Shown here: one piece after another, positions 10,343-22,610 of the stretch
How positions within the stretch are numbered: the stretch's first letter is position 1
Layout: each line of letters begins with the position of its first letter
Source: an uncultured Lachnospiraceae bacterium
Lineage (GTDB): Bacteria > Bacillota > Clostridia > Lachnospirales > Lachnospiraceae
DNA length: 64,000 bases
Assembly (NCBI GenBank): GCA_947577185.1
Contig: CANPUE010000006.1
Coordinates: 68,649 to 132,648 of the forward strand
Reading direction: 5' to 3'
Program-made: the position numbers and the translations under genes
The notes under the pieces: model-generated
What the model saw: only the letters and a program-made list of their open reading frames with translations
What the model was told of the DNA's origin: nothing
The model's database searches: none

Positions 10343-11343
10343 TTACGCCGTCACCTCCCCCATACAGTAAAATACCCTGTCCGGTCCTTCCATGTATCTC
10401 GTATCCGTAATCTTTATTGTTTCTTCATAGCGGATATCTTCGCACGATGCGCCGATCATAACGTCCATTTCTCCCTGTTCGACCATCCACCTCATCTCCC
10501 TGTTCAGATACGCAATCTGACTGGGGGATACCCGGAAAGTGACATGCTTCGTCTCCCCCGGACGTAACGAAACTCTGGCAAATCCGGCCAGCTCCCGTTC
10601 CGGTCTGACCACACCCGCAAGACGGTCTCTCAGATATAACTGAACGATCTCAGTGCCTTCACAGTTCCCGGTATTCGTGACGTTAAGCGATATCTGTACC
10701 ACTCCGTCAGAGGCGGTTTCTTTTTTATCGCAGGCAAAGCCGTCATACCGGAATGTGGTATAGGAGAGTCCATATCCGAAAAAGCTGCGCGCAGGTCTGC
10801 CTCTCGGATCGCCGCCTGAAACGGTTTGCCGTACACTTCCTGTAAAAGCCTGGGCGGCGTGTGGCTCTCTGCACCGTGGATTCCGCCCTCAGAATTGTGA
10901 AATCCCATGAAATGCTTTGCCACGGCTTCGGCATACCGTTTACCGCCTGCCTCTGTCGACTGTACGGAACCGTCTGAAAGACATTCCACCGGGTAATTCT
11001 GGATTCCTTTTGTATAAGCGGTTCCCATCGCGGAGGCAAGTGTGGGATCTTCCCCATAAGTCTCCCCCTGCCGCCCCATCCGGGAATCTCTGGAGATATC
11101 GAGTACAGGCGCCAATACATGGGTAAAACCGACCGCGTTTTCCTCTTTTGTCCTGAAACGACGTACTTCCAGTGTCGACACCTCTCCTATGCCATGCGCG
11201 CAGATTGCTTTCATTGCTTCCCAGCGCTCCGGCATCGCGAATACGCACTGCGTCTGTGCCATCTTTTCTTCCAGACTCATTCTGGACAGTAAGTCCTGTG
11301 CCCGCTCTCCCGCAGACAGGTTTGCATTTTTATAATTTTCCAT
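10343..11343 (-). pseudogene. GH3 beta-glucosidase-type glycosidase, large internal deletion with frame change
   Basis: The 5' part (11343 to about 10790) encodes the N-terminus of a GH3 glycosidase: LLSRMSLEEKMAQTQCV, then GRQGETYGEDPTLASAMG, then AVAKHFMGFHNSEGGIHGAE. The 3' part (about 10785 to 10343, another frame) encodes the GH3 C-terminal end, FFGYGLSYTTFRYDGF, and the fibronectin-III-like domain. The segments meet at about 10783-10795, where READLRA runs straight into FFGYGL. About 400-500 residues of a normal 700-800 are missing, including the nucleophile region, and the frames do not match. A good ribosome binding site (AAGGAGG) and a promoter region remain, so the loss looks recent. 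The product cannot be an active glycosidase. Confidence 0.85.
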
Positions 11344-11987: not shown

Positions 11988-12968
11988 TTAATTACCGTAT
12001 TGAGACACATTTGTGCTGTCAACTTTTTCAAAGGGAACCCACACATATTTCCCATCCTCGCTGACACCCTCCAGTGAATCGACAGATTCTCCTCTGGCAA
12101 ACCGGATCGCCGCTTTTACCGCCGCTTCTCCCTGACCGGCGCCGGACTGACAAACGGTAAATGCCATCTCTCCGTTTTTAATCGCGGCACATCCGTCAGC
12201 TGTCGCATCCACCCCCAGCACCGGCAGGGTACTCAGATCGATATTTGCCTCTTTGCACGCTTCGATCACACCGATCGCCATAGAATCATTTTGACAAAGT
12301 ACACAGTCCACCGGTGATCCGGTTCTTAAAAATGTTTCAAACAGATACTTCGCCAGATCCTGATCCCAGTCGGCATAATCCTCAAACACGTAATTGATCG
12401 TCTTGCCGCTGCTCTCTAACGTCTGTTTCACGCCTTTGCTTCTCCCGTTTGTCGCAGAATGCGCTCTTTCCCCCTTTAACAGCACCACATTGATTTCCTG
12501 ACTGCCTGAGAGCCTGTTAAGCACGTATTCAGCCTGAAACTGTCCTGCCACATATTCATCAGATCCGGCATAAATATAATTCCCTTCTTTGAGATGCTTT
12601 TCATCCGGACAGCTATTGATAAAAACGATCGGTATGTCTCCCGCACTCGCCTTCAGCTCCACAACCGTCTCCGAAGATACGGGACTGCAGAGAATCACAT
12701 CGACGCCCTCTGCCTCGGCAGCTTTCAGGTAATTCACCTGCTTTTCAATCGAACCCTCCGCATCCTTAAATTCAAACTGCACGCCCTCTGCCTCGGCAGT
12801 GTCCCTCGCCGCCGCAACGAGTGTCTCACGAAAACTGTCCATTTGGTTTAAAACAAGAAGAAGCCTTATGTCCTTATTGGAAGCAGTACTGCCGCCGCTT
12901 CCGCATCCGGTAAACGTAAGCATTCCGAGCATCATTCCGACCAACAATATTCCCAGTCTCTTTTTCAT
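11988..12968 (-). CDS. Sugar-binding lipoprotein (periplasmic binding protein type 1, RbsB-like)
   Basis: A 326-residue protein with a lipoprotein signal peptide (lipobox FTGC, Cys22), so it is anchored outside the membrane. The mature part has the two-lobe PBP1 pattern: early strand IRLLLVLNQ, VDVILCSPVSS, PIVFINS, then CVLCQNDSMAIGVIEA and LPVLGVDATADG near the hinge. This family binds pentoses, galactose, autoinducer-2 and similar sugars; the ligand cannot be read from sequence. It starts 3 bp after the chemoreceptor gene and is followed by a terminator. No ABC permease or ATPase is encoded in the window, so a role in sensing through the receptor is a reasonable inference. Confidence 0.85.
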   Translation of the reverse strand: MKKRLGILLVGMMLGMLTFTGCGSGGSTASNKDIRLLLVLNQMDSFRETLVAAARDTAEAEGVQFEFKDAEGSIEKQVNYLKAAEAEGVDVILCSPVSSETVVELKASAGDIPIVFINSCPDEKHLKEGNYIYAGSDEYVAGQFQAEYVLNRLSGSQEINVVLLKGERAHSATNGRSKGVKQTLESSGKTINYVFEDYADWDQDLAKYLFETFLRTGSPVDCVLCQNDSMAIGVIEACKEANIDLSTLPVLGVDATADGCAAIKNGEMAFTVCQSGAGQGEAAVKAAIRFARGESVDSLEGVSEDGKYVWVPFEKVDSTNVSQYGN

Positions 12969-12971
12969 AAT

Positions 12972-14975
12972 TTATACCCCCTGCCTGCCTACTTTAAATT
13001 TGTTCATCTGATCCGCCAGCTCTACCGCCGACGCCGTCAGCTCTTTTGCACCGCAGGCAACCGTTTCGCTGTTGTCGGTGATGTTGTCTGCCTGCTCTAC
13101 CATCGTAGTCGATGTTGCCAGGATCTCCTCGGAACTTGCCGCCTGTTCCTCTGAAATTGCCGCCACATTGACCGCGACATTATCTACCTGTTCCACCTTT
13201 TCCATCATCTGCTGTACCAGATGATTAACCTCGTCAATATTATTGAAAATCACATCAAATGTCTTCAATGCGCTGCTTACCAGCACGCCGCTGCTCTGAA
13301 TATTGCCCACGCTGTCCTCCGCCTGACTCACCGCATCCTTTACGAGAACAATGATCTCAGAAATCAGGCTCTCGATATTATGTACGGAATCTGAACTGGT
13401 CTGTGCGAGCTTTCCGATCTCTGTCGCGACTACCGCGAAGCCTCTTCCTGCCTCGCCTGCCCGGGCCGCCTCAATCGAAGCATTGAGCGACAACAGATTT
13501 GTCTCGTCCGCGATCTCGCTGATCACACCCGTGATTTTTGTAATTTCCTCGGATGCGTTTCCCACCTTGTCGATCGCCTGCTGAAGCTTCGCTACCGATT
13601 CGTTGATGCTTTGCATCGCGACACCGACATTCTGCATGTCCGCTTTTCCCTGACGGGAAACCTCTACCGTCGCCTTCATCTTGAGGTCTACCTGTCCGGC
13701 ATCGCTCCTGGTATTTGCCACGACTGCCGCGAGTGTGGTCGCATTTTCCGCAATCTCATTCACCGAAAGAGAGAGCTGTTCCACCGTGTTGTTCAATTCC
13801 TGCATCGATTCGCTCTGCAGTCTGGAAGCATCATACATTTCCCCGGAGACACTATTGCTATTGTCCGCCTGGATATGCAGCTTGTCAGACACACCGTGAA
13901 TAGACATAATCATACCGCGCATGGACTGGATAAACTGCTCCACGCCCCGGCTCATAAGGCCGATCTCATCATTGCTCTTCGTTGTGACCTGAATCGTAAA
14001 ATCACCGTCGGTCATCGCCGTAATGATTTTTGTCAGTTCCCTGACCGGTCTGATCACTGCCTGGACAACACGCTCGATCAAAACAGCGAGCAGCAGCAGC
14101 GATACCAGACCGATCACCGCCATCAGGATTCTGACCCCGTTAATATCCGCGTAAATCGTTTCTGTCGGAATATAGGAAACCAGAATCCAGTCCGTTCCTT
14201 CTATTTCCGTAAATGCTGTCATTCTGTCATCTATCTCTGTCATCTGGTAATCATGCTGTCCCAGTTTTTCGCCCACATCCCGCATAAAGGCCTCATCGGC
14301 ATCCGCAAGCCGTGTTGAAATCAGGCTGTTATCCCGGTGGGCCAGAATCGTACCGTCCCTGGAATTGACCAGAAATGCCTGCGCATCTTCCATCTCAATA
14401 AAGCTGTTTACAATGATGCTGATACGCTGCAGAGACAAATCTGCTGAAATGACCTTCAAAACATCAGAATGATCATCCAGAATACCGGAAGCACTGACAA
14501 GCGCCTCTCCGTTCTCATCCGTATAGGCATCCGTAAATGCCATATTCAGCCTCGTGATACCGTCCTGATACCATACGGATTCCAATATATTGTTCTCTGT
14601 CTTGTCCGATTCCGCCGCCTTCATAAGCTTTCCGTTTTCATCCGCCACATACAGCCCTTCCGGATAATTATCATTAAACTGATAATAACTGTCAAGGATA
14701 CGCTGCAGAGCCTCTTCATCCGGCGCTGTTCCCTCGATCGCCCGCTTTACGGTCTGAAATGCAGACAGATTCTCATCCAGCCACGACTCAATCTCATTCG
14801 CCTGATTTGCAATGGACGAGCTCAGCAGATTCTGCGAATATTCTGTGATAATATTTTTGGATATCAGGTAAGAGGTAGTGGCAATGACCAATACCATGAC
14901 TGCAACGACCGGCAGAATCGTCCCTAACAGCTTTGCCTTAATCGGAGCTATCTTTTTGTTCGTGTTTTTCCCCAT
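12972..14975 (-). CDS. Methyl-accepting chemotaxis protein (Cache-HAMP-MA)
   Basis: A 667-residue receptor: a basic N-terminus, TM1 at about 18-40, an extracellular region to about 275 resembling a double Cache domain ([31 protein letters not shown]), TM2 at about 280-303, a HAMP linker, and a C-terminal signalling domain. The CheA/CheW-binding hairpin is present ([20 protein letters not shown], then [16 protein letters not shown]). It reports ligand binding to the flagellar motor through CheA. It has its own promoter (15037-15065) and is directly followed by the sugar-binding lipoprotein gene, which may feed it ligand. Confidence 0.93.
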
Positions 14976-15136: not shown

Positions 15137-16666
15137 CTAATCTGTTTTCAGCGAAAGGACCGCCATTCCTTCCCTTCCGGGAAGTGAAAGCTTTGTCTTA
15201 CCGCATGCTTTTTCAAACAGAACCGTCCTGGTCATCTCCCAGGTGTCGATCAACTCTACTTTGTAACAATGGGTCTTTGGAAGTTCCAGCATATCCTCCG
15301 CACAGGTGCGCCTGTCATAGAAAGTCAGGTAAGCGTCCTCGCCGCAATGTCCCTGATATACAAACTCACTGTTGCAAAAGTCAGAAATCTCATCGCCCAT
15401 ACGCAGTATCGCTTTCCCAAAGTGATCAGCCTGCTGCAAAAACTGCGCTTTCTCTTTGGCCGACATATTGACCAGCTGCATGATCCGGCTCTCAATCGGC
15501 TCGATCGGCCCCGGAAGCTGTTCAACAATCTTTTTCAGGAATGCAATGCGCGCCGGGCTTTCCCCTTTCAGCTGGCCGCCTCTGCTCCACCAGAGAATCT
15601 CATGTTCCGGATCCAGAAATGTTTCCCCATGCGTACAATAGCCGCCCATCGTGACCACGCGCCAGAACCGGTACGTCATCTCCCTGCCGGATATGCTTCC
15701 CCAGATGTGCTGAATATTTCCTTCATAACAGCACTCGTCGATCACCACCGGCTTCCGATACAGCCTGCGCCACCCGGCAACCTTATTGAGTACTTTGGAC
15801 TGGATCGATGCATGCGTTACGTTCGGGCGTGTAAAATCCCAGTTTTTAAAACAGTTATGATTAGAGAGCAGATGGTGATACGGGTCATGTTCCGCCACAA
15901 ATTCTTCAATCTGCTCCCAGTCTGTGATTGTCTTTGCCTCACACAGGTCATACTCGTTTGCCAGACTCCACCACACATTCGGAAAGGCCGCGATACGACG
16001 AAGCAGGTAGTCCAGGTAGATCAGGTTATCCGCCTGCGGCATCTTTGCAAAACCCCATCGGTCATAAGGGTGAAACAGGATCAGATCCGCCTGGACACCC
16101 ATCTTTCCAAACTGTATCAGAATTTTTTCCAGTCTCTCCCAGAAGGCAAAGCAGGGACGGTTTACATCCCAGCCGCCATCTTCCTTTTTCTCAAAAGCAA
16201 AATAAGGAGGTTCGTTATGGTTAAAATCATAATGCTTTGGAAATACACAGAAACGGACTTTATTAAAGGGTGTATCCTGCAGGCTCTCCATTGTCTGCGC
16301 GGTCAGCTGATCTTCCTGATGAAACAGCGCATAGACTGTTGTGCCAAACGGATAATAGGGTGTACCATCCGCATAGGTAAAATGCATGTCCGCTGTCCGC
16401 ACCGGGCCATGGATATTCTGCCTGCTGTCCGCGCACGCACAGTGTTCTGCTCCTTCCTGATCCAGAATGCCTGTTACCTTCCATGTATAGGTTCCCGCTT
16501 TCTCCGGCAGGAAACGTACTTTGTAAATACCGTTTCCGGCATAAAAGCCTTTCACGGCTTTGCACTCTCCTTCACAGGAAAATACCGCCTCCAGATCGAT
16601 GTCCACAAAAGATCCTTCCGGTTCTTTTCCTTTCAATTCCAGTTCAAACATTTCATATTGTCTCAT
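15137..16666 (-). CDS. DUF5060/DUF5605 glycoside hydrolase (apiosidase-like, clan A type)
   Basis: A 509-residue protein without a signal peptide, so it probably acts inside the cell on imported oligosaccharide. The N-terminal 80-90 residues form a DUF5060 beta-sandwich (VRFLPEKAGTYTWKVTG). A TIM-barrel-like catalytic region follows, with the likely acid/base in VWWSLANEYDL and the likely nucleophile in KPVVIDECCYEGN. WRVVTMGGYCTHGETFLDP is characteristic of the DUF5605 group. Relatives with DUF4038/DUF5060 include plant-cell-wall apiosidases, but the substrate here is unproven. It overlaps the kinase stop (ATGA) and has GGAGG 7 nt before the start. It is the last gene of the operon. Confidence 0.75.
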   Translation of the reverse strand: MRQYEMFELELKGKEPEGSFVDIDLEAVFSCEGECKAVKGFYAGNGIYKVRFLPEKAGTYTWKVTGILDQEGAEHCACADSRQNIHGPVRTADMHFTYADGTPYYPFGTTVYALFHQEDQLTAQTMESLQDTPFNKVRFCVFPKHYDFNHNEPPYFAFEKKEDGGWDVNRPCFAFWERLEKILIQFGKMGVQADLILFHPYDRWGFAKMPQADNLIYLDYLLRRIAAFPNVWWSLANEYDLCEAKTITDWEQIEEFVAEHDPYHHLLSNHNCFKNWDFTRPNVTHASIQSKVLNKVAGWRRLYRKPVVIDECCYEGNIQHIWGSISGREMTYRFWRVVTMGGYCTHGETFLDPEHEILWWSRGGQLKGESPARIAFLKKIVEQLPGPIEPIESRIMQLVNMSAKEKAQFLQQADHFGKAILRMGDEISDFCNSEFVYQGHCGEDAYLTFYDRRTCAEDMLELPKTHCYKVELIDTWEMTRTVLFEKACGKTKLSLPGREGMAVLSLKTD

Positions 16667-18132
16667 AATGCGCCTCCATTACAGATCATCCTGACGGCGC
16701 GCTTCCATCTGCCGCGGATGATTTCTTTTTCTTTGTGTTCCATTTTTGGTTTCAGACCGTGATATGTGATTTTGGAAAATATCGTCTCCTGATCCATGCA
16801 TCCTGCCGTGATCCCGGCCAGATAAGCCGCCCCTGCCGCAGACAGTTCCTCTGTATCGGATACCAGTACTTCCGCTCCTGTCAGATCGCTCTGAAACTGC
16901 ATCAGATACCCGTTTTTCGTCGCGCCGCCGTCTGTGCGAAGCTGGGTTATCTTCTGCCCGCAGTCTTCCTCCATCGCTTCAACCACATCCGCGATCTGTG
17001 ACGCGATGCTCTCCACGGCCGCTTTTATGATCTCTGCCTTCCCGGTCGTCCTCGTCATTCCGACGATAGCCGCCTGCACATCGTTTTCCCAGTAGGGCGC
17101 CGACAGGCCCGTAAAGGCCGGGACCAGTACTGTCGTATCGTTTTTGTCTGCCTTCGCGCTCCAGTCTTCCAGTTCTTTTGCAGAGCCGATCAGCTGCAGA
17201 TTGTTTTCCAGCCACTTTATCACCGCTCCGGTATAGTTGATGTTTCCTTCCAGAACATAGGATACATTTCCGTCGATTCCCCATGCAAGGGAAACTGCCA
17301 GGCCGTGTTTTCCCATGACGGGCTGATCTCCTGTATGCATCATGATGGAAGATCCGGTTCCATAAGTTGCCTTTATCATACTGCGTTCATGACATCCCTG
17401 ACCATACAGTGCCGCGTGGGAATCTCCCATAACGCCGCGGATCGGAACTTTCTTCCATAAGATCCCGTCAAAGTCCGTCATTCCGAAATCCGCGTTGCTG
17501 TCCCGCACTTCAGGCAGCATCCCGGTATCGATACCGAAACTCCTGCAGATCGTTTCATTCCAGCCAAGCGTGTGGATGTCAAAAAGCTGCGTCCTCGAAG
17601 CGTTGCTGTAATCTGTCGCAAATATCGCTCCTCCTGTCAGCCGGTATAGGAGATAGCTGTCCACGGTCCCAAGACAGATCTCATTTCTGTCAAGTCCTGA
17701 CAGTTCCTGTTCCATCAGCCATTGCATCTTTGCCGCCGGAAAAAAAGGTGACAGCACAAGCCCGGTGTGCGCTTTTATGTAATCTGCTTCCGACTGATGC
17801 CTTTTGGAAATCTCTGCCGCCCGGCTGCACTGCCACACCACCGCGTGCGTGTACGGTCTACCGTCTCTTGCCCACGCAGCCGTAGTCTCCCTCTGGTTGC
17901 TGATTCCCACTGCTGCAATCTCATCCGGCTCTGCTTCAAAATCTGTAAGAAGTTCTTTCACACCCTCAAGCAATTTTTGATAGATTTCTTCCATATCGTG
18001 GGAAACATAGCCTCGTTCGTCTATGATCTGCCTGTGGGGACGGTCCACCCGTTTTCTGATCATTCCTGCCTCATCAAAAAGAATGACTTTCGTCCCCTGC
18101 GTACTCTGGTCAATTCCGATCACATACTTCAT
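16663..18132 (-). CDS. FGGY-family carbohydrate kinase
   Basis: A 489-residue sugar kinase of the FGGY family (xylulokinase, glycerol kinase, fuculokinase and relatives). The N-terminal ATPase lobe begins YVIGIDQSTQGTKVILFDE. GISNQRETTAAW and the DSHAALYGQGC loop are present, and the C-terminal lobe has LRTDGGATKNGYLMQFQSDL with AAGAAYLAG. Overall it looks closest to glycerol kinase or xylulokinase, but context argues for a ketose. It overlaps the transketolase C-subunit stop (ATGA) and the hydrolase start (ATGA). It is expected to phosphorylate the ketose made by the isomerase at 20017-21414. Confidence 0.88.
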   Translation of the reverse strand: MKYVIGIDQSTQGTKVILFDEAGMIRKRVDRPHRQIIDERGYVSHDMEEIYQKLLEGVKELLTDFEAEPDEIAAVGISNQRETTAAWARDGRPYTHAVVWQCSRAAEISKRHQSEADYIKAHTGLVLSPFFPAAKMQWLMEQELSGLDRNEICLGTVDSYLLYRLTGGAIFATDYSNASRTQLFDIHTLGWNETICRSFGIDTGMLPEVRDSNADFGMTDFDGILWKKVPIRGVMGDSHAALYGQGCHERSMIKATYGTGSSIMMHTGDQPVMGKHGLAVSLAWGIDGNVSYVLEGNINYTGAVIKWLENNLQLIGSAKELEDWSAKADKNDTTVLVPAFTGLSAPYWENDVQAAIVGMTRTTGKAEIIKAAVESIASQIADVVEAMEEDCGQKITQLRTDGGATKNGYLMQFQSDLTGAEVLVSDTEELSAAGAAYLAGITAGCMDQETIFSKITYHGLKPKMEHKEKEIIRGRWKRAVRMICNGGAL

Positions 18133-19073
18133 ACGGCTGCCTCCGATGCAAACGCTTCTCTGATCCTGCGCGTCATTCCCTCCGCATCCAGTCCGTAATA
18201 TTGAAAGATCTCCCGGTTGGTTCCTTCTACCATATGGCCGTCCGGTAAAGAAAGGGTGATTACACGCATCGGGTGTTTCCGGCAGATCAGTTGTGAGACC
18301 ATGCTGCCCAGTCCGCCATAGGGAGAATGTTCCTCAGCCGTAACGATCAGTTTTGAAAGTAATGCCGCCTTGAGTACTGCCGCTTCATCAAGAGGTTTGA
18401 TACAGTACATATCAATCACGCCTGTATCGATCCCATCGGCACGTAACTGCTCCGCAGCCTTTAGCGCGAAAGGAACCAGTTCCCCGCAGGTAATGATTGT
18501 GACGTCTTTTCCGATCCCCAGTACATTCGCACGGTCAAGTATAAAATCTATCGTTTCATCGTATACATCTTCTGTTGCGGAACGGCTGACTCTGATATAA
18601 GCAGGTTTTTTATCTGCAAGCAGCGATTCGATCAGTTTCTTTGTCTGGAAACGGTCGCTCGGGAGATAAACCCGCATTCCCGGAAGTGCGGCAAAAGCCG
18701 CAATGTCTTGACAGGAATGGTGCGTCATTCCAAGCGCTCCATAGCTGACACCGCCGCTGATGCCGATCAATGTGACATTCGTGTCGGAATATGCCACATC
18801 CACCTTGGCCTGTTCATAGCTTCTGGTCGTCAGGAAACTGGCCGGAGATGCGGCAAAAACCTTTTTTCCACAGGCCGCAAGCCCGGCGGACACCGTGACC
18901 AGATTCTGTTCCGCGATCCCAAGCTCGATAAACTGTTCGGGAAACTGCTTTGCAAATGGCGCCAGCGACGCGGAGCCTCTGGAATCAGAACAGGTCACGA
19001 CAATGTCCTTATCTTCCTTTGCCGCCTGCAGCAGCGTATCACAGATTGCCTGTCTGTTGGTTATTTGATTCAT
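18129..19073 (-). CDS. Transketolase C-terminal subunit (split transketolase)
   Basis: A 314-residue C-terminal half of a split transketolase: the pyrimidine-binding domain (AGLAACGKKVFAASPASFLTT, with the catalytic Glu expected in ELGIAEQNLVTVSAG) and the C-terminal domain (IVTAEEHSPYGGLGSMV). With the N-terminal subunit it forms a thiamine-diphosphate enzyme that transfers two-carbon ketol units. The start is preceded by GGAGG inside the 3' end of the N-subunit gene (35-nt overlap). In the known D-apiose route a split transketolase of this kind (AptA/AptB) cleaves apulose-4-phosphate. Confidence 0.92.
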   Translation of the reverse strand: MNQITNRQAICDTLLQAAKEDKDIVVTCSDSRGSASLAPFAKQFPEQFIELGIAEQNLVTVSAGLAACGKKVFAASPASFLTTRSYEQAKVDVAYSDTNVTLIGISGGVSYGALGMTHHSCQDIAAFAALPGMRVYLPSDRFQTKKLIESLLADKKPAYIRVSRSATEDVYDETIDFILDRANVLGIGKDVTIITCGELVPFALKAAEQLRADGIDTGVIDMYCIKPLDEAAVLKAALLSKLIVTAEEHSPYGGLGSMVSQLICRKHPMRVITLSLPDGHMVEGTNREIFQYYGLDAEGMTRRIREAFASEAAV

Positions 19074-19908
19074 CGCATTCCGCCTCCTTCCATGATTCTA
19101 TCTTTTCTGTCAGTTCTTTTACCGCGCACTCATACTGCTCTTTACTCAATACGCCATGGTGCCACTCTTTCCTGTCTTCCATAAAAGAGACGCCCCTGCC
19201 TTTTTGCGTATTGGCGATCACTGCGGTCGGCTTTCCACGGTAAGAGGCGGCCAGACGATACGCCTCTTCCAGCTGGCCGCAGTCATTTCCGTCAGACACT
19301 TCGATGACATTCCAGCCAAACGTACGGAAACGTGCGCCCATATCGCCTCCGTCCATCACCTCTTTTGTCGTTCCGCTGATCTGCAGTCTGTTCACATCAA
19401 CTGTGGCACACAGATTATCCAGACGGTAATGACCTGCCGCCATCATCGCCTCATAATTAGAGCCTTCCGCCATCTCTCCGTCTCCAAGCACCACATAGGT
19501 ACGATACCTTTTGTGATCCATTTTGGCCGCGAGCGCCATCCCGACGCCCAGTGCCAGTCCATGCCCAAGAGAACCGGAATTGATCTCGATTCCCGGCACT
19601 TCCGTGTTGGGATGCCCAATATAACGGGACTGGTATGCGGAGAACGTATTTTTCGCCTCTTCCTTATCAAAAAATCCCTTTTCTCCAAGCACCATATACA
19701 ATGCGTCCACGCAATGTCCTTTACTCAATAAAAACCGGTCCCTTTCCCCGTCGGCAAAATTCTCCGGCGTCACATTCATCACCCTGAAATACAGCGTGGC
19801 CAGAATATCGATCACACTCAGATCTCCGCCCACATGTCCCGCGCCGGACCGGTATACCATGTCAATAATATCCCGGCGCAGTTCGTATGTTTTACTGGTC
19901 AGATTCAT
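19039..19908 (-). CDS. Transketolase N-terminal subunit (split transketolase)
   Basis: A 289-residue N-terminal, thiamine-diphosphate-binding half of a split transketolase. Family motifs are SGAGHVGGDLSVIDILATLY, SKGHCVDALY, GSLGHGLALGVGMALA and the TPP signature VLGDGEMAEGSNYEA, followed by NRLQISG. I start at 19908 because GGAGG lies 6 nt upstream. The in-frame ATG at 19920 has no ribosome binding site and its codons contain that GGAGG. It pairs with 18129-19073 and lies 108 bp downstream of the isomerase gene. Confidence 0.92.
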   Translation of the reverse strand: MNLTSKTYELRRDIIDMVYRSGAGHVGGDLSVIDILATLYFRVMNVTPENFADGERDRFLLSKGHCVDALYMVLGEKGFFDKEEAKNTFSAYQSRYIGHPNTEVPGIEINSGSLGHGLALGVGMALAAKMDHKRYRTYVVLGDGEMAEGSNYEAMMAAGHYRLDNLCATVDVNRLQISGTTKEVMDGGDMGARFRTFGWNVIEVSDGNDCGQLEEAYRLAASYRGKPTAVIANTQKGRGVSFMEDRKEWHHGVLSKEQYECAVKELTEKIESWKEAECDESNNQQTGNL

Positions 19909-20016
19909 TTTTTCCTCCATTCCAAAACGTCACAGATTTTCTGTATCCTGATTTTCTGATTCTTCTCATCAAAATTTCATTTCGCAAAATCTCCGAATCA
20001 AAAGACACGTTTCGCG

Positions 20017-21414
20017 TTAACCGCGGATATACGCTTTTATTTCTTCTTCATTGTCATCATACAGATCCGGTGTTACGCCAATATACTTGCATGCTTCGTA
20101 AAGCACCGGTACCACATCTTTATGGATTCCCACACAGTGATGGATGTAAGGCCCTTCCACGATCTTTGCTTCCAGCCGTTTCCAGTTTTGTACCTCAACC
20201 CACACATACGTGCCTTTTGTGTAAGGGCCGTCTATTCCTTTCGCGTTTCCAAGGAGAAGGGAATATTCTCCATTGTCTCCGTCAAACCGGCAAAGCGTCA
20301 TCTCCCCGTGCTTTGCCTCCGCTTCCACGGCACCCGGATGATCAAAAGCAAGCGGATAGCCGATGGCCGGCTTACAGGATGCACAGGAAAGCGGCCACGG
20401 CCCGCAGTGTTGCAGCAGTTCCCCGTTCTCATTATCCGGGTGGCGTACCGTCCAGTCCGCAAAGAAAGTCCGCGCCTCATCCATACCCGCCGCCTCACAC
20501 AGAACCGCTGTGATCGCACCGTGGATGTCCGTCTCACACACGAGCGGAAGTCCCTCTTCATTTAACAGGCTGTTTGCGGCACAGGGCATGATTCCAAGCT
20601 GTCCCTGTAGAGCATTCCAGCACTGGATCGCTGCGGCATTGCATCCGTACCGGTCCGCCAGCCTGCGTATTGCCACTTTTAACGCCGCCACATTTTCCAG
20701 TTCCTCTTCTCGGATGTGGATATCAAAATGTTCCTTACAGTAAGTAATCACATTTTGTACTTCGCTTTTTTCCTCTTTTGCGCGCGTTACCTCTTCTGTC
20801 AGTTCCGGCAGCGGGATCGGAGAAAGCTGGATATTGAACCGCTCTAACAACTCTCCTTCATTGCACATCGTAGACCAGAAGTCAAACGGCCTCGGTCCGA
20901 TCTGTAAAATACGGATCCTGCGGAATGCTTTGACCACATTGCACACTGCGAGAAAATTTTTGATCCCCCGCGAAAAAGCTTCGTCTTCCAGACGGCAGTT
21001 TCCCAGATAAGTAAACGGAATCCGGAACCTGCGCAGTACCTTTCCTGTCGCAAACAGACCGCACTGGCTGTCCCGCAGACGCACGCCGTTCTCATCCGGC
21101 CGCTCATCCCGCGGCCCCCATAAAAGAACCGGTACGTTTAAGGCCTTTGCCAGTCTGGCGACTTCATATTCTGTCCCGAAATTACCATGTGGGAAAAAGA
21201 GACCGTCCACTCCGGCTTTTTTAAATTTTTCCGCGATGCGTATCCGGTCCTGCTCGTTATGAAGCAGGCCGTCCTGCGCGATATCATCGATATCGACGAA
21301 ATTTACGCCAAGGCTTCTTAGTTTTTCCCTCGTAAGATCTGCATATTTGACTGCATCCGGCGCAGAAAAAATGCTTCTTCTGGTCGGCGCCATCCCCAAA
21401 ATGATTTGTGCCAT
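20017..21414 (-). CDS. L-fucose/L-arabinose isomerase-family sugar isomerase
   Basis: A 465-residue protein of the L-fucose isomerase-like superfamily, which interconverts aldoses and ketoses with a divalent metal. Visible features are the N-terminal Rossmann-like lobe (DGLFFPHGNFGTEYEVARLA), IGPRPFDFWSTMCNEGEL, the middle region AAAIQCWNALQ followed by CETDIHGAITA (candidate metal ligands Glu and Asp), and a C-terminal beta domain ending EGPYIHHCVG. Members of this group are often of unknown substrate. It is the first gene of the operon (GGGGAGG, 6 nt before the ATG), under a promoter covered by a palindrome and divergent from a LacI regulator. Confidence 0.85.
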   Translation of the reverse strand: MAQIILGMAPTRRSIFSAPDAVKYADLTREKLRSLGVNFVDIDDIAQDGLLHNEQDRIRIAEKFKKAGVDGLFFPHGNFGTEYEVARLAKALNVPVLLWGPRDERPDENGVRLRDSQCGLFATGKVLRRFRIPFTYLGNCRLEDEAFSRGIKNFLAVCNVVKAFRRIRILQIGPRPFDFWSTMCNEGELLERFNIQLSPIPLPELTEEVTRAKEEKSEVQNVITYCKEHFDIHIREEELENVAALKVAIRRLADRYGCNAAAIQCWNALQGQLGIMPCAANSLLNEEGLPLVCETDIHGAITAVLCEAAGMDEARTFFADWTVRHPDNENGELLQHCGPWPLSCASCKPAIGYPLAFDHPGAVEAEAKHGEMTLCRFDGDNGEYSLLLGNAKGIDGPYTKGTYVWVEVQNWKRLEAKIVEGPYIHHCVGIHKDVVPVLYEACKYIGVTPDLYDDNEEEIKAYIRG

Positions 21415-21479
21415 ATTCTACCTCCCCAATCGCTTGTTTCATAGGTTCTGCTTGTTTTACCCAGTATAAAAAGAAAAAA

Positions 21480-21504
21480 ACTCAATTAAAATACATAATT
21501 GAGT
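21480..21504. promoter_or_regulatory. Palindrome over the sugar-operon promoter, candidate LacI-family operator
   Basis: ACTCAATTA (21480-21488) and TAATTGAGT (21496-21504) are perfect 9-bp inverted repeats around a 7-bp spacer. The -10 box of the isomerase promoter begins in the right-hand edge of this spacer on the minus strand. A T-run follows on the minus strand, so an AT-rich attenuator is an alternative, but overlap with a well-spaced promoter favours an operator. Confidence 0.5.
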
Positions 21505-21516
21505 AATCTTTTTCAA
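21488..21516 (-). promoter_or_regulatory. Candidate promoter of the isomerase-transketolase-kinase-hydrolase operon
   Basis: On the minus strand TTGAAA (21511-21516) and TATTTT (21488-21493) are 17 bp apart, about 75 bp before the isomerase start. The palindrome 21480-21504 straddles the -10 box, so bound repressor would block RNA polymerase. Confidence 0.5.
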
Positions 21517-21596
21517 AATATTTACTAAATTTATTAAATTTTATGGTATCATGGTGATGAAGAAAACAGTCGATACGAACAGAAGGGAGTACCTTT

Positions 21597-22610
21597 ATGA
21601 CGATCACAGCAAAAGAACTGGCTAAAAAACTGAATCTCTCGGAATCAGCGGTCTCACTGGCGCTCAATCATAAACCGGGCGTCAGCACCAGAACCAGAAA
21701 TCTCGTACTGGAAACCGCCAAAGCATGCGGATACGATTTTTCCCGATTAAAAGAGAGCGACAAAAGTATCACGCCAAACGGCTCCATCTATTTTGTCATT
21801 TACCGCAAACATGGGGCTGTCGTAACCGATACACCTTTTTTTTCACAGCTTTCTGAGGGAATCGATGCGGAATGCAAGAAGTGTCATTATTATTTGAATG
21901 TGCATTATCTGTATGAGGAAGATCCTGTTGAAAAACAGTTAAGCGACTGGCAGAGCGCGGGGGCAAAAGGCATCCTGCTGCTTGGCACGGAAATGTCACA
22001 GCGTGACCTGACACCGTTTGCACAAAGCAGTCTTCCCCTTGTCCTGCTTGATAATTATTTTGAAGAACTCGATCTTGACAGTGTGCTGATCAATAATATC
22101 AGGGGCGCTTTTACTGCCGCAAACTATCTGATCCGCAAATACAAATGCCAGCCCGGTTATCTGCATTCTTCCTGCCCGATCAATAATTTCGACGAGCGGG
22201 CCGACGGATTTTATAAGGCACTGCGCAAAAACGGCATGTCCACCTCTCTCTCCGTTGTGCATCGTCTCACACCTTCCGTGGAAGGCGCCTGCTGCGATAT
22301 GAGAGAAGTACTTCTGGCAAAGGAACCGCTGGCCAGATGCTACTTTGCCGACAACGACCTGATCGCCGCCGGTGCAGTCAAAGCCTGCCGCGAAGCCGGT
22401 TACCGGATTCCACAGGATATTGCAGTCATAGGTTTTGACAATATGCCGCTGTGCACTTATATCGATCCCACGCTCAGCACCATCCATGTGCCCAAACAAT
22501 ATATGGGAAAAATCGCCGTCAGACGTCTCCATGAGCTGATCTCAGACCCGGACAGCAGTCCGTTAAAAATTGAAATTTCCACCTCACTGGTCAAACGGAA
22601 AAGCGGCTGA
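21597..22610 (+). CDS. LacI-family transcriptional regulator
   Basis: A 337-residue LacI/GalR repressor. The N-terminal helix-turn-helix and hinge read TAKELAKKLNLSESAVSLAL then NHKPGVSTRTRNLVLETAKACGY. The ligand-binding core has the PBP1 pattern (KGILLLGTEMSQ, LVLLDNYFEELDLDSVLINN) and the C-terminal IAVIGFDNMPLCTYIDPTLSTI. AAGGGAG precedes the ATG. It is transcribed away from the isomerase operon with a 182-bp shared intergenic region, so it is very likely the operon's sugar-responsive repressor. Confidence 0.92.
   Translation: MTITAKELAKKLNLSESAVSLALNHKPGVSTRTRNLVLETAKACGYDFSRLKESDKSITPNGSIYFVIYRKHGAVVTDTPFFSQLSEGIDAECKKCHYYLNVHYLYEEDPVEKQLSDWQSAGAKGILLLGTEMSQRDLTPFAQSSLPLVLLDNYFEELDLDSVLINNIRGAFTAANYLIRKYKCQPGYLHSSCPINNFDERADGFYKALRKNGMSTSLSVVHRLTPSVEGACCDMREVLLAKEPLARCYFADNDLIAAGAVKACREAGYRIPQDIAVIGFDNMPLCTYIDPTLSTIHVPKQYMGKIAVRRLHELISDPDSSPLKIEISTSLVKRKSG

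Follow-up and report, generated by a model that had tools for sequence, protein, structure and literature searches.

D-Apiose is a rare branched sugar of plant cell walls and flavonoids, and the known transketolase route for its breakdown, which supplies the reaction scheme used below, was reportedly set out by Carter et al. in 2018. According to excerpts of a further report (PMC13001218), the D-apiose genes of Escherichia coli SE15 include aplK (ECSF_RS02700), aptA (ECSF_RS02710) and aptB (ECSF_RS02715), and growth on D-apiose is seen in Escherichia strains that carry the cluster and in Pectobacterium carotovorum. The SE15 locus (L076) reads in order: two short-chain dehydrogenases/reductases (SDRs), permease, ATPase, DUF2291 protein, substrate-binding protein (SBP), AplK, regulator, AptA and AptB. 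Here we analyse 64,000 nucleotides of an uncultured Lachnospiraceae bacterium (‘the window’; assembly GCA_947577185.1, contig CANPUE010000006.1, positions 68,649 to 132,648), in which five minus-strand genes diverge from a LacI-type regulator gene. We assign a probability of about 0.82 to the reading that this is a LacI-regulated catabolic operon for D-apiose, whose hydrolase (GH), isomerase (ISO), kinase (KIN) and two-subunit transketolase (TKN/TKC) would serve the known transketolase route. That parallel had already been drawn in an initial annotation of the sequence, and it is upheld by the clade that TKN/TKC form with AptA/AptB, by apiose-type ATP-binding cassette (ABC) proteins in relatives, by a GH140-type gene inside a related operon, and by genome-wide co-occurrence with the PF13204 domain. 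The same annotation spoke of a candidate new rare-sugar pathway, which goes too far: the apiose transketolase pathway itself is already known, ISO is a different first enzyme for it, and GH is likely an apiosidase family.

We propose the following sequence of events. A plant apioside would be imported, and GH would release D-apiose inside the cell; ISO, as a metal-dependent enzyme, would convert D-apiose to D-apulose; KIN, a glycerol-kinase-derived FGGY enzyme, would produce D-apulose 4-phosphate; and TKN/TKC would transfer a two-carbon ketol unit to glyceraldehyde 3-phosphate, yielding dihydroxyacetone phosphate and xylulose 5-phosphate. The substrate and every one of these reactions are predictions from sequence, drawn from the gene set and its conservation, from clade and fold assignments and from genomic association. 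The features are as follows.

15137–16666, minus strand: GH, with DUF5060, a PF13204 apiosidase-like catalytic domain and DUF5605; proposed intracellular apiosidase
16663–18132, minus strand: KIN, FGGY kinase (FGGY_N/C) on a glycerol-kinase-like scaffold, with the apulose-kinase motifs GDSH and TYGTGSS
18129–19073, minus strand: TKC, transketolase pyrimidine/C-terminal subunit (PF02779 and PF02780), AptB-like
19039–19908 (first in-frame ATG at 19920), minus strand: TKN, transketolase N-terminal, thiamine diphosphate-binding subunit (PF00456, 162 bits), AptA-like
20017–21414, minus strand: ISO, sugar isomerase of the L-arabinose/L-fucose isomerase fold; proposed D-apiose to D-apulose isomerase
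21415–21596: divergent intergenic region, presumed to hold promoters and operator
21597–22610, plus strand: LacI-family regulator (LacI-type binding domains), divergent from the operon

All six genes, the five of the minus strand and the divergent lacI, were found at these coordinates as one operon, and their domains, order and couplings agree with the initial annotation: GH overlaps KIN by 4 nt, KIN overlaps TKC by 4 nt, and TKC overlaps TKN by 35 nt. The 108-bp gap reported between ISO and TKN holds if TKN begins at its second ATG (19908), presumably the start chosen there, but shrinks to 96 bp from the first ATG; because GGAGG lies just upstream of the second, we place the start at 19908. 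The operon contains no aldolase or epimerase, as had been stated, and no xylulokinase either. The source genome comprises 2.49 Mb in 34 contigs and is 67% complete.

Conservation and distribution of the operon

Our family survey covered 200 genomes from 199 genera. An ISO ortholog is present in 33 of them (identity 69% or more, the next match below being 59%) and a KIN ortholog in 34 (at least 51%; next lower match 43%). The two travel together: KIN occurs in all 33 ISO-positive genomes and in one of the 167 others (Fisher p 6e-37), this one (G170) being represented by an 8.7-kb contig that ends after TKC. We fetched 30 of the 32 orthologous loci other than the window's (L032–L061), and in 29 of these TKN, TKC and KIN all lie in ISO's stretch. 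Since the same four genes recur in 29 of 30 loci, and KIN tracks ISO across 200 genomes, the grouping is not a matter of chance. In the exceptional locus, L059, the transketolase and kinase genes occupy a separate locus (L212) of the same genome (G084). Within the genus of the source organism, at least 2 of 24 genomes carry the operon (G900 and G914), and G060 has no ISO ortholog.

The operon is also found in Monoglobus and Listeria. In a record of Listeria monocytogenes NCTC7974 (L101:4004-13086), it comprises LacI, ISO, TKN, TKC and KIN, together with a beta-glucoside phosphotransferase system (PTS) and a DUF4038 apiosidase-like gene; we take this locus to be lmo1030-1036 of strain EGD-e. 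Excerpts of a published operon list (PMC2996996) give lmo1031-1036 as one operon of transketolase, glycerol kinase, PTS and hypothetical proteins. We also observed second operons with TKN, TKC and KIN at 52–65% identity (L209:7251-10488, L210:7225-10469, L211:9044-12360 and L212:7920-11158). These adjoin a different RbsABC-type transporter, and an isomerase was not found there; their role may be direct uptake of a ketose such as apulose, or they may work with an ISO gene located elsewhere, as L212 might with that of L059 in G084.

In 25 of the 30 orthologous loci, the fetched stretch also contains a LacI homolog. Of 14 divergent intergenic regions, 13 share the 7-mer ACTTAAT (200 shuffles gave 11 at most); the exception is the window's region, and we therefore claim no LacI operator.

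Transketolase, kinase and transporters

TKN consists of a Transketolase_N domain, and TKC of Transket_pyr and Transketolase_C domains. A split transketolase by itself says little, because each of the 24 further genomes sampled from the genus carries one that is 45–47% identical to TKN. We therefore looked to phylogeny. In a rooted tree (outgroup: four full-length transketolases; L183 and six near-copies of ordinary split transketolases left out), 15 transketolases of the ISO-operon type, 13 of them from operons with ISO and two (L208, L210) without ISO alongside, form a single clade with nine AptAB rows (eight from Pseudomonadota, and L180 from a Bryobacteraceae metagenome-assembled genome). 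Support for this clade is 100/99.9, and it excludes six other split transketolases, for which ‘housekeeping’ is our own label. TKN/TKC thereby group as an AptA/AptB-type two-subunit transketolase, apart from the ordinary split enzymes, which is the placement that the initial annotation had singled out for checking. An earlier, unrooted tree was discarded: AptAB was not placed in it, and its p-AU 0.03 test was confounded by L183, which carries a Rahnella-type isomerase yet grouped with the ISO-operon transketolases.

The window proteins are 44% (TKN to AptA), 34% (TKC to AptB) and 37% (KIN to AplK) identical to their counterparts in E. coli SE15. KIN passes the subfamily model PRK00047 (513.6 bits over 498), fails the GlpK equivalog model TIGR01311 (510.9 bits against a cut-off of 590), and falls far under the models for fuculokinase (TIGR02628, 81 of 471 bits) and ribulokinase (PRK04123, 53 of 428). 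A xylulokinase identity was rejected at 174 of 380 bits (TIGR01312); by sequence, KIN is glycerol-kinase-like, not xylulokinase-like. Our kinase tree, built from 40 of 82 collected rows (the misframed L274 was left out), has three groups, namely GlpK, AplK and Firmicutes KIN, with KIN outside the GlpK clade; the check thus went against both xylulokinase and ordinary glycerol kinase. The active-site motifs point the same way, in rows drawn from loci that we chose: GDSH is present in 37 of 40 KIN-type rows (all but L090, L091 and L101) and in 27 of 28 AplK rows, GDQQ is in none of either, and GDQQ is found in 10 of 11 GlpK rows, the eleventh being misframed. The window's KIN shares GDSH/GSS with AplK in place of the GDQQ/GCF of GlpK.

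These features bear on an alternative in which the order of steps is reversed: the transketolase would cleave unphosphorylated apulose, and KIN would phosphorylate the free dihydroxyacetone so released, an arrangement resembling the sulfo-transketolase (sulfo-TK) pathway. The counterparts of KIN in AptAB clusters belong to a kinase-first apulose route, and the exchange of GDQQ/GCF for GDSH/GSS suggests a rebuilt, roomier site. On the other hand, a glycerol-kinase-like scaffold could accept a triose, and there is precedent for a split transketolase, SqwGH, that acts on a free ketose, 6-deoxy-6-sulfofructose (PMC11659671, in excerpt). We consider the reversed order unlikely and favour phosphorylation of D-apulose by KIN ahead of TKN/TKC.

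Relatives of the window link this kinase and transketolase to apiose uptake. The ABC proteins that adjoin ISO operons share 41–46% (SBP), 46–49% (ATPase) and 50–55% (permease) identity with their E. coli SE15 counterparts; among the 30 orthologous loci, the apiose-type SBP gene occurs in nine, the ATPase gene in eight and the permease gene in seven, and a gene family of about 221 residues, identified as Pfam DUF2291 by a scan in L049, occurs in nine. The SBP of L049 has 5ibq and 4ry0 as its best matches in the PDB (1e-108; the next, a ribose-binding protein, stands at 8e-53), and the E. coli SBP has the same two. The title of 4ry0 names RHE_PF00037 of Rhizobium etli, a ribose transporter SBP; 5ibq presumably holds D-apiose. 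The type of transporter beside ISO operons varies, from the RbsABC type to the MalEFG type (assigned by eye for L048 and L059) and the PTS of Listeria. The ROK-family and GH1 genes of L059, and the beta-glucoside PTS of Listeria, would fit apiosyl-glucosides. No complete transporter lies beside the window operon.

Hydrolase, isomerase and the first step

The PF13204 apiosidase-like domain of GH scores 47.2 bits, over a cut-off of 26.5, and the nearest solved structure is 4n0r, a ‘putative glycoside hydrolase’ (E 1e-94, phmmer). We propose Glu238 and Glu311, invariant among nine relatives, as the catalytic residues; because the first residues of GH hold no evident signal peptide, we take it to act inside the cell. 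Genes of the window's GH type lie in or near the operon in L048, L056, L058, L059, L091 and Monoglobus pectinilyticus (L100), in the last directly after the kinase as in the window; in Citrobacter (L125) the type also occurs inside the apiose cluster, and in Kluyvera (L124) it precedes the isomerase by 7 kb. The apiosidase-type hydrolase of the initial annotation is supported by its domain and by the presence of its type near two enterobacterial apiose clusters, but not by any sequence match to GH140 structures.

Such a match does exist in relatives. In L034, whose ISO is 83% identical to the window's, a gene between TKC and KIN matches 3kzs/5msy, which we take to be the GH140 apiosidase BT1012, at 1.6e-100, and 8t9w, titled ‘Apiosidase’, at 7e-66; the GH140-type gene of Listeria L101 matches 8t9w at 2.5e-25. 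GH140-type genes are present in 3 of the 30 Firmicutes loci and in 4 of 80 scanned loci (L104–L183). Across the family survey we divided PF13204 matches into a strong class (E below 1e-50) and a weaker class (E 1e-21 to 1e-12; the window's are the only domains of this class checked). Of the 19 genomes in the strong class, 17 belong to the 33 that have ISO and 2 to the 167 that lack it (p 9e-14); the weaker class, of 15 genomes with the window included, has eight ISO-positive members (p 7e-4). Within GH43-positive genomes the strong link holds (17 of 32 against 2 of 106; p 3e-11). We also observed genes for a GH78 rhamnosidase and a GH127 beta-L-arabinofuranosidase directly after the kinase in L033:14036-18837, and a GH127 gene is annotated near an apiose cluster of Rhizobium (L187); these neighbours may reflect breakdown of the side chains of the pectin rhamnogalacturonan II.

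ISO has only a sub-threshold Pfam match (Fucose_iso_C, 27.4 bits against a cut-off of 29.3), and its full length adopts the L-arabinose/L-fucose isomerase (AraA/FucI) fold. In alignment with AraA, Glu294, His336 and His426 match Glu306, His350 and His450; AraA Glu333 meets an alanine, with Asp320 one residue on. We take these four AraA positions to be metal ligands. The window thus has no ApsI-type isomerase (presumably a PF01261 TIM barrel) in this slot. The initial annotation had envisaged a different isomerase solution; the fold is confirmed, but its use in that slot is not unique to the window, since many Enterobacterales use another branch of it. No paper on an ISO-type isomerase surfaced in our literature searches, whose coverage did not extend to the founding apiose-route paper. 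In three paralogous loci (L062, L063 and L064), an ISO with 56–58% identity to that of the window accompanies two other FGGY kinases, and L062 and L064 also hold a second isomerase, 44% identical to that of Rahnella; they probably represent another rare-sugar pathway.

A varying first enzyme is also a feature of other apiose clusters. In records of Rahnella, Klebsiella and Sodalis from a plasmid collection, a FucI-like isomerase gene stands next to the AplK gene. When named genomes were scanned with the Rahnella isomerase, AptA, AptB and AplK occurred together in 72 of the best 80 of 157 loci (L104–L183), and a TIM barrel or SDR pair (at least 60% identity) in none of those 80. Rhizobium L187 contains the ABC genes and DUF2291, a PF01261 TIM-barrel protein in the isomerase slot, then two transketolase subunits, a kinase and TpiA, the last of which fits the dihydroxyacetone phosphate product. 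In an independent draw of 295 genomes from the order of Yersinia frederiksenii, 12 have AptA: six with a FucI-like enzyme in the cluster, two with a TIM barrel in the cluster, one with a close TIM barrel elsewhere in the genome, two with the SDR pair, and one with none recognised. No two of these types coincide in any of the 12, the TIM barrel having been sought genome-wide and the other two in the fetched stretches; four of the 12 also have TIM-barrel paralogs of 35–38% identity. The cluster with no first-step enzyme recognised in its stretch (L215:9163-12420, genome G695) consists of AptA, AptB and AplK without an adjoining transporter, and the only TIM-barrel match in that genome is 35% identical. 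As these gene sets would have it, the first step is filled by interchangeable enzymes, with the rest of the apiose pathway fixed.

Several observations weigh against the D-apiose assignment, or against parts of it. Support for grouping KIN with AplK is 56/0 only, and the kinase tree does not fix the branching order of its three groups. Neither the window nor the rest of the 67%-complete source genome contains a close apiose-type SBP (best match 25%). GH has no phmmer match to the GH140 structures 3kzs, 5msy or 8t9w at E up to 1, 4n0r being its only significant match, and it belongs to the weaker PF13204 class, in which 7 of 15 genomes lack ISO. Neither class includes a match from 12 of the 33 ISO-positive genomes; outside both classes are the ISO-negative G036 (3e-38, a broken strong-type match) and six genomes with matches weaker than 1e-6. 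The control family GH43 is present in 32 of 33 ISO-positive genomes and in 106 of the 167 others (p 2e-5), and because ISO-positive genomes are enriched for it as well, part of any association with glycan enzymes is general. Finally, ISO is 25–30% identical to the isomerase of enterobacterial apiose clusters and its relatives, and in a 53-row tree a 95/90 branch divides the two clades, with several other groups between them.

The isomerase tree suggests two separate recruitments of one fold, with the proviso that it has long branches and that the intermediate groups could act on apiose too. Four rows scanned from those groups are Fucose_iso_C proteins without assigned function. Two rows initially regarded as arabinose isomerases (L237 and L238) proved to be unassigned proteins of this kind, which weakens the case for separate recruitment. 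At a little under even odds, we tentatively put forward a joint proposal: that D-apiose isomerase evolved at least three times, ISO founding a Firmicutes family recruited independently both of the enterobacterial enzyme, which shares the fold, and of ApsI with its TIM barrel; that GH represents a new intracellular apiosidase family outside GH140; and that Listeria lmo1034, annotated as glycerol kinase, is an apulose kinase.

The fold of ISO, and the GH78 and GH127 genes that adjoin one scanned operon (L033), could also be read as signs of another pentose or deoxyhexose (L-arabinose, D-arabinose, D-xylose, L-lyxose or L-fucose), handled by an isomerase, a ketose kinase and an ordinary transketolase. 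Breakdown of these sugars usually depends on an epimerase or aldolase, or on a xylulokinase, all absent from the operon; KIN falls far short of the models for xylulokinase, fuculokinase and ribulokinase, and the transketolase clade, ABC and GH140 evidence all indicate apiose, which makes such a substrate very improbable. Hardly credible is a housekeeping set, with KIN as the organism's glycerol kinase and TKN/TKC as its only transketolase: KIN is indeed the only close GlpK-type kinase of the source genome (other matches 24%) and TKN its sole Transketolase_N match, but the genome is 67% complete, each of the 24 other same-genus genomes sampled has a split transketolase 45–47% identical to TKN, close GlpK-type kinases occur in 165 of the 200 family genomes surveyed (38–43% among those listed other than KIN orthologs), and the trees separate KIN from GlpK and place TKN/TKC with AptAB, away from ordinary transketolases.

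Just downstream of the operon and on its strand, window positions 11988–14975 encode a sugar-binding lipoprotein and a chemoreceptor (methyl-accepting chemotaxis protein, MCP). Two Kosakonia loci (L114 and L117) likewise have MCP-like open reading frames within their apiose clusters, and chemotaxis toward the operon's sugar is possible. A GH3 open reading frame of 237 residues (10630–11343) covers only part of the N-terminal domain and looks truncated.

Comparison with described systems

The sulfo-TK pathway (SqvD, SqwGH; PMC11659671, in excerpt) resembles the window operon in combining a split transketolase with an isomerase whose model, SftI, ISO matches weakly. The window operon differs in having a kinase and in lacking a second isomerase and a sulfoacetaldehyde gene; at 106 bits against a cut-off of 700 for SftI (NF048012), and with no sulfonate gene in the operon, we rejected a sulfoquinovose reading.

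GH shares its PF13204 catalytic domain with the GH140 apiosidase BT1012, and strong PF13204 genes co-occur with the operon; it differs in being flanked by DUF5060 and DUF5605 and in having no phmmer match to 3kzs/5msy. If our reading is correct, it indicates a hydrolase family with apiin and other dietary apiosides as possible substrates.

The apiose clusters with a FucI-like isomerase (L097–L099 and L104–L178), mostly of Enterobacterales and Pasteurellaceae, place the same fold family in the same slot, with an enzyme that is 25–30% identical to ISO and sits on a different main branch of the tree.

The window operon is also close to the D-apiose transketolase route of Escherichia and Pectobacterium: both have an AptA/AptB-type split transketolase and a GlpK-like FGGY apulose kinase (for KIN, a predicted one), and some window relatives (9 of 30 loci) share the ABC type with DUF2291. 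In contrast, the window regulator is LacI-type, its operon carries a hydrolase, and ISO has the AraA/FucI fold where that route uses ApsI (a TIM barrel) or the Escherichia SDR pair. If true, this reading would assign a substrate to the operon of about one in six sampled family genomes (33 of 200), of Monoglobus and of Listeria, whose copies of these genes bear the annotations glycerol kinase, transketolase and hypothetical protein; it would also offer a case, open to testing, in which interchangeable enzymes perform one metabolic step and the remaining pathway stays constant.

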